Source: Salinigranum rubrum (GTDB lineage Archaea; Halobacteriota; Halobacteria; Halobacteriales; Haloferacaceae). Taken from it: a stretch of 64,000 nucleotides of DNA. The stretch lies in NCBI RefSeq assembly GCF_002906575.1, contig NZ_CP026309.1:3472001-3536000 (forward strand). Reading direction: 5' to 3'. Made by a program: the position numbers and the translations under genes. The notes beneath the pieces are model-generated. The model was not told where the DNA came from and did no database searches. It worked only from the letters and a program-made list of their open reading frames with translations. Positions 57,395 through 61,589 of the stretch are shown in pieces; position 1 is the first letter of the stretch, and every line of letters starts with the position of its first letter.

Positions 57395-58342
57395 TCAGTT
57401 CGAGGCCGCGTCGAACGGGTTCGTCCCCGCACCCACCTCGTCGACGGTCGACACGCCGTCGCCGTCCCAGTCGGTTCGCAGGTACTCGTTCGCGGCGTCG
57501 CGCGGGTCCAGTCCGCCGAGGAGTTCGTCCTCGTCCGCGAGGCCGTCGCCGTCTGAGTCCGCCCGCTCGGGGTTCGTTCCGACGAGCGTCTCGTATGCGT
57601 CGTCGAGGCCGTCGCCGTCGCCGTCACTCACAGCGGGCACGTCGCTCCGGTCGTCCGGGTCGGTTCCCGCGTCGACCTCGACGCCGTCCGAGACGCCGTC
57701 GCCGTCGGTGTCGAAGGCGAGCGGGTCGCTGGTGTAGAAGCCGAAGACTTCGTCGCCGTCGGCGAGGCCGTCACCGTCGGTGTCGGGGTCCGCGGGGTCG
57801 AGTTCGGGGCTCGAAGACACCTCGCTGTCGTCCTCAAGTCCGTCGCCGTCGGTGTCGGTCTGGTAGTGCCCGCCGTCGGAGGCGTCGAGCGCGTCGGTCC
57901 GACCCTGTTCGACGCGGTCGTTCGAGCCGTCGCCGTCCGTGTCGGGGTCGAACGGGTCGGTACCGAGGGCGCGTTCGTCCTCGTCCGAGAGACCGTCTCC
58001 GTCGCTGTCGCGGTCCAGGAAGTCCGGCACGCCGTCGCCGTCCGTGTCACGCGCGCCCTCGTCGGCGTCGGAGAGGCCGTCGCCGTCGCTGTCGGCGTCC
58101 CGGAAGTGCTCGACGCCGTCACCGTCGGGGTCGGCAACGGTCCGCTCGGCGTGGTAGGTTTCGAGCGCCGACGGGATGCCGTCGCCGTCGTGGTCGACGA
58201 CTTCGGTGCTCGGGCCGTCGTTCGCGACGCTCGTGAGGTTGAGGTCGGCCGTCGACCCGGTGAGCGCGACAGCACCGACCGATGCCGCCGATGCGACGAC
58301 GGTGACGACGAGGGCGACAGCGACTGCCCGCCGAGCGCTCAC
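57395..58342 (-). CDS. Exported calcium-binding-repeat protein (thrombospondin type 3-like)
   Basis: The 315-residue protein has an N-terminal signal ([22 protein letters not shown]). It is then almost entirely Asp/Gly-rich repeats of the form [10 protein letters not shown] and [14 protein letters not shown], at least ten DxDxDG-type loops. Such loops bind Ca2+ in thrombospondin type 3 repeats and dockerin-like modules. It is secreted or surface-bound and probably folds around Ca2+ in brine. No catalytic domain is attached. Confidence 0.82.
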
Positions 58343-58578
58343 GACGCACCTCCGAGGTGTGTCGCACCGGGGGCGGTGCCAGGAGGCGCGTCGACAGGTG
58401 AGATCGGGGGACTCTCTTCTCCAATAGACATTCTCGCGGATTCGATAGGGAAGTACCGTCTTAGTTAAGAGCAGGCTCCCGTCGCGTTAGGCCCCGCTGA
58501 CCGGAGTAGGCGACACCTACTCGGCTGACGCGGAGGCATCGGGTGTGGATTTATGCTCCCGGCGGGGGAACGCCGGCC

Positions 58579-59627
58579 ATGCACCGACTCATCGCCGACC
58601 GGTCGCTCGACGACTCGTGGCTCGGCCCCGAAGACGCCCGCGCGGCCTACCGGGACATGGTCCGGACGCGGCGGTTCGACGACCGGGCGCTCGCGCTCCA
58701 GCGCCGCGGGTGGATGAGCGGCTACCCTCCGTTCCGCGGGCAGGAGGCCGCGCAGGTGGGCGCCGCTCACGCCATGCGCGACGACGACTGGCTCCTCCCC
58801 ACCTACCGCTCGAACGCGCTCCAGATCGCCCGAGGGGTCCCGATGAGCGACATCCTCCTGTTCCGGCGGGGCCACCCCGAGTACCACTCCGACCACGACG
58901 TCCCGGTCCTCCCGCAGGCGGTCCCCATCGCCAGCCAACTGCCGCACGCCGTCGGTATCGGGATGGCGCGGAACTACCGGAGAGCAGGGAAGCGGCGCTC
59001 GTCTGCTTCGGCGACGGCGCGACGAGTCAGGGCGACACCCACGAGGCGATGAACTTCGCCGGCGTGTTCGAGACGCCGACCGTGTTCTTCTGTGAGAACA
59101 ACGGCTGGGCCATCTCCTACCCCCGCGAGCGCCAGACCGCCTCGGAGAGCATCGCGGCGAAGGCCGAGGCGTACGGCTTCGAGGGCGTCCAAGTCGACGG
59201 CAACGACCCCCTGGCGGTTCGCGAGGCCGTCTCGGATGCGCTCGCGTCGGCGCGCGACGGCTCACCCGTCCTCGTCGAGGCGCTCACCTACCGGCAGGGC
59301 GCGCACACGACCGCCGACGACCCCGACCGCTACCGACCGGCAGAGCCGGACCTCCCCGAGTGGCGGACGCGCGACCCGCTCGACCGGTTCGAGGCGTACC
59401 TCCGCGAGGAGGGACTCGTCGACGACGCGTTCGTCGAGGAGACGCGCGAGCGCGCCGACGAGGAACTCGCGGAGGCTGTCGCCGCCGCGGAGGACGTCGA
59501 ACCGCCGGGAGCGGACGACCTGTTCGACTACGTCTACGCGGGGTCGTCGCCGCATCTCGACGACCAGCGAGCGGACTGTCGGAGAGGCGAGGCGAGCCAC
59601 CCACTCGAAGGGAGTCACGACGACTGA
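58579..59627 (+). CDS. 2-oxoacid dehydrogenase E1 alpha subunit, frameshifted near 58988
   Basis: The N-terminal half (MHRLIADRSLDDSWLGPEDARAAYRDMVRTRRFDDRALAL...IASQLPHAVGIGMARNYRRAG) and the C-terminal half (EAALVCFGDGATSQGDTHEAMNFAGVFETPTVFFCENNGWAIS...) are in different frames. One G added to the G3 run at 58987-58989 gives a 349-residue E1 alpha. The thiamine-diphosphate motif GDGATSQGD...NNGWAIS is intact. E1 alpha of pyruvate or branched-chain dehydrogenase complexes needs E1 beta, E2 and E3, none of which are in this window, so it is an orphan here. TATA-like GGATTTATGC lies about 27 bases upstream. Confidence 0.82.
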
Positions 59628-59682: not shown

Positions 59683-59916
59683 TCAGTCGTCCATCGCGAT
59701 GTACGTCTTGGTGTCGGTGACGCCCTGTAGCCCCTGAATGCCGCTCGACGCCGCCTTCAGCACCTCGTACACCTCGTCGGCGTCCACCTCGGCGATGATG
59801 TCGTACGCCCCCGCGACGATGTGTGCCTCCGTGACCGTTTCGAGGTCACGAACGGGCCCCAGCAACTGTTCGGACTCCCCGGCGCCGGTCTTCACCATGA
59901 TGAACGCGTGAACCAT
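59683..59916 (-). CDS. Stand-alone Lrp/AsnC RAM-domain protein
   Basis: The 77-residue protein is just the regulatory (RAM) domain of Lrp/AsnC proteins: MVHAFIMVKTGAGESEQLLGPVRDL...EAHIVAGAYDIIAEVDADEVYEVLKA...TDTKTYIAMDD. There is no DNA-binding helix-turn-helix. It should form ring-like oligomers that bind amino acids. It sits divergently from trkA; a second similar protein follows trkA. Confidence 0.85.
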   Translation of the reverse strand: MVHAFIMVKTGAGESEQLLGPVRDLETVTEAHIVAGAYDIIAEVDADEVYEVLKAASSGIQGLQGVTDTKTYIAMDD

Positions 59917-60018
59917 GTGCTGTGGTACTCAACAACAGGGCAAAAAGTGTTCGCCCGCACCGGGAGAGGAGCAGGGGCGGGGACAACCTTATTGCCGTCG
60001 TACGATGTATCGACTCTC

Positions 60019-60702
60019 ATGCGATTCGTTATCATAGGTGGTGGACGTGTGGGCTCTCGGACTGCGCGCGTCCTCATCGAGGAAGGTCACGACGTGACCG
60101 TCGTCGAACTCGACGAGGACCGCCAGGAGCGGTGCCGAACCGCCGGGTTCGACGTGGTCGCCGGCGACGGCTCCCACGAGGACGTCCTCCTCGAAGCGGG
60201 CATCGAGGAGGCCGACGCGCTCGGGGCGCTCACGAGCAACCTCAACGTCAACTTCGCGGCGTGCATGATCGGGAAACACCACGGCTGTCGGACCGTCATG
60301 CGTATCGACGAGGAGTACCGCGAGGAGATATACCAGAAGTACGCCGAGGAGGTCGACGAAATCGTCTACCCCGAACGCCTCGGCGCCGTCGTCGCCAAGA
60401 ACGCGCTTCTGGGAGGGTCGATCCGCGCCATCGCCGACATCGCCCAGAACCTCCAGGTCGTTCTTCTCACCGTCTCGGAGGAGTCGCCGATGCGCGGTTA
60501 CACGCTCAGTGAGGTGGCACTCCCCGAAAAAGCACACATCCTCGCGTTCGGGAAGAAAGACCAGGCGATGGGCGTCCCGCTCCCCGACGACTCGCTCGAA
60601 CTCGGCGACCGCGTCGCCGTCCTCGCCGACTTCTCCGTCCTCGGCGAGGTGCGACAACTGCTCGTCGGTGACGAGGTCGCCGCCGTTCCGGGAGGTGCGT
60701 GA
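60019..60702 (+). CDS. trkA: TrkA-type potassium-transport regulator (RCK domains)
   Basis: The 227-residue protein has an N-terminal NAD-binding RCK domain (MRFVIIGGGRVGSRTARVLIEEGHDVTVVELDEDR...VAGDGSHEDVLLEAGIEEADALGALTSNLNVNFAACMIGKHHG) and a C-terminal RCK-C domain (MRGYTLSEVALPEKAHILAFGKKD). It binds nucleotides and gates K+ uptake through a Trk/Ktr channel. TATA-like CAACCTTATT at about 59983-59992 is 30 bases before the ATG, so transcription is probably leaderless. The next gene starts GTGA inside its stop region. Confidence 0.9.
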   Translation: MRFVIIGGGRVGSRTARVLIEEGHDVTVVELDEDRQERCRTAGFDVVAGDGSHEDVLLEAGIEEADALGALTSNLNVNFAACMIGKHHGCRTVMRIDEEYREEIYQKYAEEVDEIVYPERLGAVVAKNALLGGSIRAIADIAQNLQVVLLTVSEESPMRGYTLSEVALPEKAHILAFGKKDQAMGVPLPDDSLELGDRVAVLADFSVLGEVRQLLVGDEVAAVPGGA

Positions 60703-60935
60703 CGGTGGTCACCGCCTACATCATGGTCAAGGCCAACACCGGGGAGGCCGACCGACTCAAGGGCGAAATCCTCGACCTCGGCGACGGCGTCGTCGACGCC
60801 AACATCGTCGCCGGCGACGTCGACTTCATCGTGAAGGTCCACGTCGAGACGCCCGTCGACGTCAAGGACATCGCCTCGGCCATCCAGGCGATCGACGGTA
60901 TCGAGGACACCCAGACGTACATCGCGATGGACTGA
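60699..60935 (+). CDS. Stand-alone Lrp/AsnC RAM-domain protein coupled to trkA
   Basis: The 78-residue RAM-domain protein (MTVVTAYIMVKANTGEADRLKGEILDL...ANIVAGDVDFIVKVHVETPVDVKDIASAIQAI...TQTYIAMD) lacks a helix-turn-helix. Its GTG start overlaps the trkA stop by 4 bases. It is paralogous to the divergent protein at 59683-59916 (shared IVAG and TYIAMD motifs). The arrangement suggests these ligand-binding proteins regulate TrkA or a shared channel (inference). Confidence 0.85.
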   Translation: MTVVTAYIMVKANTGEADRLKGEILDLGDGVVDANIVAGDVDFIVKVHVETPVDVKDIASAIQAIDGIEDTQTYIAMD

Positions 60936-60957: not shown

Positions 60958-61446
60958 CTAGAACCCGCCCGCGTCCTTCGCGCTCGACATGAGCGACGTG
61001 ACCGGTTCGGTGTAGTCGTACCCCGGGATGACGCCCTGCACGTAGGTGCCCTCGACGAACGTCACGAGCGCGGCCGCGTCGTCGACGCCTCGCCGCTCGT
61101 TGATATCGGTGTACGTGACGGTCACGACGAGTTCGTCGTCGAGGTGACGGACCGTGGGGTCGAGGCCGCGCTCGGCTTTCGTGACGCCGTCGACGTCCTC
61201 GACGCGGAGTTCGAACGTCTCGGTCCACCCCTCCTCGACGACGCCCGCGACGTCGCCGTCGACGACAGCCGAGAGCGTCGGGACGCGAATCTCGACCGTG
61301 AACCGCACGTGGCCGTCGTCGTCGGTCTCGACGGTCACTGTCGCGTCGAACGGTGTCGCCGTCGAGACGTACTCGTCGATCCCCGCCTCCTCGAAGCCGC
61401 TGTGGTCGGCGAACGCACGCCGCACACGACCTGGTAACTCGCTCAT
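60958..61446 (-). CDS. Conserved haloarchaeal protein (DUF5813-like)
   Basis: The 162-residue protein begins MSELPGRVRRAFADHSGFEEAG, followed by beta-strands (VSTATPFDATVTVETDDDGHVRFTVEIRVPTLSAVVDGDVAG, RHLDDELVVTVTYTDIN) and a helix-strand end. The pattern fits the haloarchaeal DUF5813 family as I remember it; the assignment is not certain. No signal peptide or membrane segment. Function is unknown. Confidence 0.65.
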   Translation of the reverse strand: MSELPGRVRRAFADHSGFEEAGIDEYVSTATPFDATVTVETDDDGHVRFTVEIRVPTLSAVVDGDVAGVVEEGWTETFELRVEDVDGVTKAERGLDPTVRHLDDELVVTVTYTDINERRGVDDAAALVTFVEGTYVQGVIPGYDYTEPVTSLMSSAKDAGGF

Positions 61447-61589
61447 ACCGCGGCGGAGGGACCGGTTCGAGAAAAGCCCGTTGTCCGAGCGCGTCCCACC
61501 ATTGTGTCGGTACTCGAAAAACACGATTACGGCAGTGAGAACACGAGAGACGTTCCGCTGGCGGCACGCTTAAGTCGTCGTGGGGGCTT

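Follow-up and report, generated by a model that had tools for sequence, protein, structure and literature searches.

What are two ligand-binding domains of the Lrp/AsnC type doing on either side of a trkA gene? The question is raised by a locus of the haloarchaeon Salinigranum rubrum that lies in a stretch of 64,000 nucleotides, referred to here as the window. An initial annotation of the window had read this arrangement as amino-acid control of potassium uptake. The overall explanation that we favor, and to which we give about even chances, is a haloarchaeal regulatory unit that joins an orphan RCK protein of the KtrA type to a pair of stand-alone RAM proteins.

A trkA gene between two RAM genes

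Table 1. Genes and intergenic region of the RAM1-TrkA-RAM2 locus (positions within the window).
Feature	Position	Strand	Description
RAM1	59683-59916	-	77 aa; stand-alone Lrp/AsnC ligand-binding (RAM) domain; PF01037 E 2.8e-9
Divergent intergenic region	59917-60018	.	102 nt; core-promoter-like elements pointing both ways
TrkA (TrkA/KtrA-type single-RCK)	60019-60702	+	227 aa; TrkA_N + TrkA_C; PF02254 4.5e-26, PF02080 3.8e-10
RAM2	60699-60935	+	78 aa; stand-alone RAM domain; PF01037 1.1e-8
DUF5813 protein	60958-61524	-	PF19130 1e-53; conserved neighbor, context, outside the claimed unit

The coordinates and strands of the three genes (Table 1) are as initially annotated, with RAM1 divergent from trkA and RAM2 joined to it by a GTGA, read directly from the sequence, that contains both the stop codon of trkA and the start codon of RAM2. 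Stacking 129 short RAM1-TrkA intergenic regions ungapped from each of the two starts gave GGGg.AA..TTtTT in the direction of TrkA and, in that of RAM1, a TTTT core; the two probably represent core promoters facing both ways. A conserved operator between the two genes was also considered, and by eye the core-promoter-like elements alone stood out. Upstream of RAM1, a 2-oxo acid dehydrogenase E1-alpha gene (58543-59627) is split across two frames, its relatives matching frame 1 to approximately residue 146 and frame 3 beyond, which places a frameshift near 58,980; the gene may be a true pseudogene, or the assembly may be at fault here. An acidic-residue-rich protein with bacterial TSP3 repeats (PF18884, 1.7e-28) is encoded at 57395-58342.

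RAM1 and RAM2 both exceed the curated PF01037 cut-off in Pfam profile searches and, since their open frames comprise just 81 and 87 codons, respectively, there is no space for a helix-turn-helix. They are 45% identical to each other (E 3e-18), and the pairwise comparison recovers the IVAG and TYIAMD motifs in both, so that their earlier description as two paralogous Lrp domains lacking the DNA-binding part and sharing these motifs is upheld. An AlphaFold2 model of RAM1 (pLDDT 96.1) has its nearest solved folds among stand-alone RAM proteins (2djw, 2e1a, 2cvi and 2zbc; TM-scores normalized to the query of 0.88-0.93). In a RAM tree of 108 rows, built from an alignment of 77 columns only, all 52 RAM1 sequences fall on one side of a branch with SH-aLRT support of 100, while the RAM2 rows are placed on the other side together with four full-length Lrp rows. 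By sequence, the two RAM proteins represent separate lineages of paralogues. The residue at position VAG+7 is E in 154 of 157 RAM1 proteins (V in the other three) and K in 154 of 168 RAM2 proteins, a count in which two RAM2 proteins lacked the search motif (a looser earlier search gave 145/153 and 151/168). In the RAM1 model this residue is E43, located in the third strand (residues 40-46). The opposite charges could reflect a mixed RAM1-RAM2 oligomer, but this is only suggestive because E is found at the same position in a full-length Lrp of the window's genome (L001). That genome contains 10 PF01037 matches in total. The RAM2 proteins of Haloferax (L014, L016-L020, L022, L053 and L062) have two extra residues inserted behind the first strand.

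Both the RCK_N and the RCK_C domain were found in the TrkA protein, by Pfam profiles (PF02254 and PF02080) as well as by fold. Its phmmer matches among solved structures include TrkA (4j9u, 7.5e-26) and TM1088B (3l4b), and its fold matches are the TrkA, KtrA and MthK rings, as judged from a model of only moderate quality (pLDDT 78.7, pTM 0.58). The nucleotide-binding motif GxGRVG of the RCK domain is present in 171 of 173 TrkA loci. RCK rings such as those of TrkA and KtrA change shape with the bound nucleotide, and the titles of the matched structures name ATP- and ADP-bound rings. A related clade of paralogous TrkA sequences (31 rows, 100*) comes from loci that lack any RAM, and the direction of gain or loss is not fixed by the tree.

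Distribution, order and loss of the genes

A genome scan yielded 80 named loci, the best 80 of 192 candidates, and in 47 of these loci the TrkA belongs to the same clade as that of the window. RAM1 is divergent upstream and RAM2 downstream in 45 of these 47, the remaining two (L050 and L051) having no RAM in the locus. Species with the trio include Halobacterium salinarum (DSM 3754) and several members of Haloferax. We extended the comparison to 194 genomes of haloarchaea with a completeness of 90% or more, scoring RAM as present at a best E <1e-20 and TrkA at E <=1e-98; among the 38 TrkA negatives, 20 were named as such and the others are those that the complete list of positives does not include. 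By these thresholds, 156 genomes have such a RAM and 156 have TrkA. Both were present in 150, TrkA only in six (G014, G044, G073, G156, G157 and G159), RAM only in another six (G001, G007, G021, G034, G099 and G150) and neither in 32, of which 28 belong to genera g2, g8 and g14, all of the window's family. The two presences are correlated across the sampled genomes (Fisher p 1.5e-24, a value that ignores kinship). Upon closer inspection, G034 and G150 have a cut-short TrkA match on a contig that also carries a RAM, and in G183 a TrkA in the usual neighborhood lies slightly past the cut-off (1.4e-97), which changes the counts to 152 with both, seven with TrkA only, four with RAM only and 31 with neither. 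The two RAMs of G021 are on separate contigs and both resemble RAM1 more than RAM2. Within the same phylum but outside the order, the 35 sampled genomes with a RAM match showed no TrkA match within approximately 25 kb of it by coordinates, and an origin outside haloarchaea was dismissed, the best RAM match there reaching just 8.2e-15.

Clustering with trkA in other genomes, on which the initial proposal depended, is borne out: RAM2 follows TrkA in 150 of the 156 TrkA-positive genomes and RAM1 precedes it in 138. The complete arrangement, with RAM1 upstream on the opposite strand and RAM2 downstream, is found in 123 of them; in 15, RAM1 is on the same strand as TrkA, still adjacent at a distance of 133-250 nt, whereas 12 have only RAM2 beside TrkA and six have neither. 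RAM2 was found in 168 of the 173 loci that differ in their TrkA sequence, 157 of them having all three genes, and in each of these 168 the TrkA stop is separated from the RAM2 start (taken as the ATG, GTG or TTG nearest to the RAM match) by -4 to +8 nt, a coupling that is also kept in the 11 distinct loci in which RAM1 is not adjacent. So narrow a gap provides strong evidence that TrkA and RAM2 are made together, and translational coupling would be expected. Gene order and co-occurrence combined place the RAM-TrkA arrangement far beyond chance, and the clustering of both RAM genes together with the coupled layout makes a functional TrkA-RAM unit likely. For eight of 142 distinct divergent RAM1-TrkA pairs the gap exceeds 250 nt and reaches up to 4.3 kb; genes were called in six of these eight gaps and by eye none resembles a cation transporter.

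The surroundings of the trio are themselves conserved, in a recurring block of the order epimerase-tmk-TM102-RAM1-TrkA-RAM2-DUF5813. In the 173 loci DUF5813 was found 158 times (in 121 cases within 400 nt of RAM2), the epimerase 110 times and TM102 103 times. A mirror-tree analysis of 137 loci gave correlations of 0.51 for TrkA-RAM1, 0.34 for TrkA-RAM2, 0.37 for RAM1-RAM2 and 0.73 for TrkA-DUF5813; coevolution by this measure is unsupported, the control gene DUF5813 correlating best with TrkA. Two of the 12 genomes with only RAM2 beside TrkA (G002 and G066) have no RAM1, the second match of G066 being unrelated-looking (33 bits), whereas in the other 10 a typed RAM1 is located elsewhere. We inspected the surroundings of six of these ten relocated genes and found five with tmk/epimerase and one with DUF5813. 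Since a moved RAM1 keeps its old neighbors, part of the RAM1-TrkA linkage is plain synteny, and the adjacency of RAM1 to TrkA is weaker evidence than the coupling of RAM2.

TrkA is kept among the same neighbors in G044, G073, G157 and G183, from which both RAMs are gone, and it is likewise without an adjacent RAM in G014, G156 and G159; the seven genomes span four genera (g38, g66, g3 and g62). A genome-wide search at a threshold of 1e-7 recovered no RAM in six of the seven and one weak match (7.1e-8) in G156. Because RAM1 and RAM2 flank TrkA on opposite sides, the fact that they are absent together suggests a common function. The reverse is observed in G001 and G007, two genomes of one genus (L300 and L301), where RAM1 and RAM2 are immediate, divergent neighbors between tmk and DUF5813 and TrkA is absent; the best TrkA match elsewhere reaches only 4.7e-36, and their RAM2 proteins score 82 and 85 bits as compared to 132-135 bits in nine usual loci. 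In G099 an MgtE divalent-cation transporter (PF01769 5.9e-35, with two CBS stretches) occupies the position of TrkA between RAM1 and RAM2 (L274 1498-2895; L319 4961-6824), and no TrkA match at 1e-30 was found in this genome. The gap between mgtE and RAM2 is 132 nt, so that the tight coupling is absent there. The other three genomes of genus g34 (G036, G037 and G049) have the usual TrkA, and the MgtE used as a query gave no match in the 173 TrkA loci.

Candidate function and competing explanations

That TrkA and RAM2 form a functional unit is, in our view, quite probable, and it is nearly as probable that RAM1 and RAM2 act together. In the mechanism we propose, subunits of RAM1 and RAM2 would combine into one mixed oligomer and bind a small metabolite at the interfaces between its dimers. 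Docked onto the RCK ring through RAM2, this oligomer would let the ring respond to the metabolite as well as to the nucleotide that its Rossmann fold senses, and the ring would in turn open or close a cation transporter whose gene lies elsewhere in the genome. An amino acid is the most likely ligand, at a little less than an even chance. Control of K+ flux is a more doubtful part of the proposal: K+ through a TrkH-type channel is our default guess, with Mg2+ or another cation as the alternative. Haloarchaea maintain very high K+ alongside amino-acid balancing. In its most specific form, that of an obligate mixed RAM1-RAM2 oligomer serving as a regulatory subunit of RCK-gated cation transport, in which an Lrp-type sensor controls ion flux directly instead of transcription and is possibly swapped between transporters (TrkA, or MgtE in G099), the proposal is speculative and somewhat unlikely.

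The neighbors scanned with Pfam include no channel gene, the small membrane protein TM102 lying outside that scan. In the window's genome, TrkH is matched at three sites and TrkA_C 27 times. One TrkH gene (C1:3331389), which has no TrkA_C match within approximately 29 kb by coordinates, was examined as a possible partner and rejected: its relatives (E <=1e-120) occur both with and without TrkA, being found in genus g2, which has neither TrkA nor RAM, and missing from 12 of the 194 genomes, 11 of which have TrkA and RAM. In another region (L294; G000:C1 about 1.3706-1.3769 Mb) two of the three TrkH genes of this genome match in two pieces in different frames, either through a real break or through assembly indels. 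A single-RCK TrkA at L294 3654-5745 (G000:C1 about 1.368-1.370 Mb) overlaps a same-strand frame resembling an amino-acid permease, so named by eye, near two TrkH genes. For the initially proposed control of K+ uptake by amino acids the outcome is therefore mixed: a TrkA-RAM unit is made likely by clustering and coupling, whereas the K+ part is weakened, as the RAM pair persists where TrkA is missing or MgtE is in its place and the lone TrkH does not track TrkA.

The finding in G099 also bears on the possibility that the unit regulates a transporter other than TrkH, e.g., one of MgtE type for Mg2+ or an amino-acid permease, in which case the name trkA would be misleading. The permease-like neighbor of another single-RCK TrkA in the window's genome would fit this explanation, as would the 11 genomes with TrkA and RAM that lack a match to the query TrkH, in which other TrkH types may occur; but the replacement by MgtE is confined to a single genome, is not shared by its three relatives in g34 and has no counterpart in the 173 loci, and we consider the explanation rather unlikely. 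The RAM pair that outlives TrkA in G001 and G007 could also indicate that RAM1 and RAM2 modulate full-length Lrp factors through mixed octamers, in the manner of the Pyrococcus protein DM1 with FL11, and that TrkA is just co-transcribed with RAM2. Such hetero-octamers have been obtained in vitro (PMC2995911), and the 10 PF01037 matches of the window's genome would fit. Such modulation would not explain, however, why RAM2 follows TrkA so closely in all 168 loci, nor why the RAMs and TrkA are correlated in their presence, given that the genomes without the pair mostly keep weak RAM matches (~1e-8), presumably Lrps; we regard it as improbable.

It is similarly improbable that nothing beyond synteny is involved, the block from the epimerase to DUF5813 being inherited without a functional link save for an ordinary TrkA-RAM2 operon. 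The conservation of unrelated neighbors, the relocated RAM1 genes that stay with their old neighbors and the negative mirror-tree are what one would expect from inheritance of a block, but they do not account for the disappearance of the RAMs on both sides where TrkA itself was kept, for the persistent coupling of TrkA and RAM2 where RAM1 is not adjacent, or for the genome-wide correlation of the two presences. A regulatory unit of TrkA, RAM2 and RAM1 is well supported and is the reading we retain; with the coupled layout of RAM2, control of an ion transporter by amino acids becomes plausible.

Comparison with known systems

In fold, length and lack of a helix-turn-helix, RAM1 and RAM2 resemble DM1 of P. 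horikoshii (2e1a/2cvi), STS042 of S. tokodaii (2zbc) and TTHA0845 of T. thermophilus (2djw), which are also the top matches by sequence profile and, for the modelled RAM1, by fold. Stand-alone RAM proteins are described as binding amino acids at dimer-dimer interfaces and shifting between dimer and octamer, and DM1 as forming mixed octamers with FL11 in vitro, while their exact physiological significance is stated to be still unclear (PMC2995911). The accessible parts of that paper contain no tie to RCK proteins, whereas here two fixed paralogues with different charges at VAG+7 flank trkA. A conserved RAM pair tied to an RCK regulator thus offers a concrete and genetically testable candidate role for stand-alone RAM proteins.

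RAM-only proteins of haloarchaea are already in print: two ligand-binding-only proteins of Haloferax mediterranei, WP_004059678.1 and WP_004059676.1, are mentioned in the available text of PMC8229911, and their near-consecutive numbers would fit a RAM1-RAM2 pair. In the open-licence literature searched, and as far as its accessible text goes, no paper describing RAM genes that flank trkA was found.

On the side of the RCK protein, the closest solved relatives are KtrA, TM1088B of the two-subunit TM1088A:B ring and the TrkA of TrkH-TrkA, which combine RCK_N and RCK_C and carry GxGRVG as the haloarchaeal protein does. In contrast to the KtrA and TrkA systems, no channel is found among the scanned neighbors of the haloarchaeal gene and its conserved partner genes encode RAM domains. 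A junction of Lrp-type and RCK_C (TrkA_C) modules has been described for haloarchaeal Lrps (PMC8229911) and discussed for Trh2 (PMC4236453) in the parts of these sources that were available, and the window's genome encodes one protein of the Trh2 type, with a helix-turn-helix and TrkA_C (L116). The Trh2 type is a single DNA-binding chain with a C-terminal TrkA_C, whereas at the locus studied here the RAM domains and a complete RCK are encoded as individual proteins, none of them with a helix-turn-helix.
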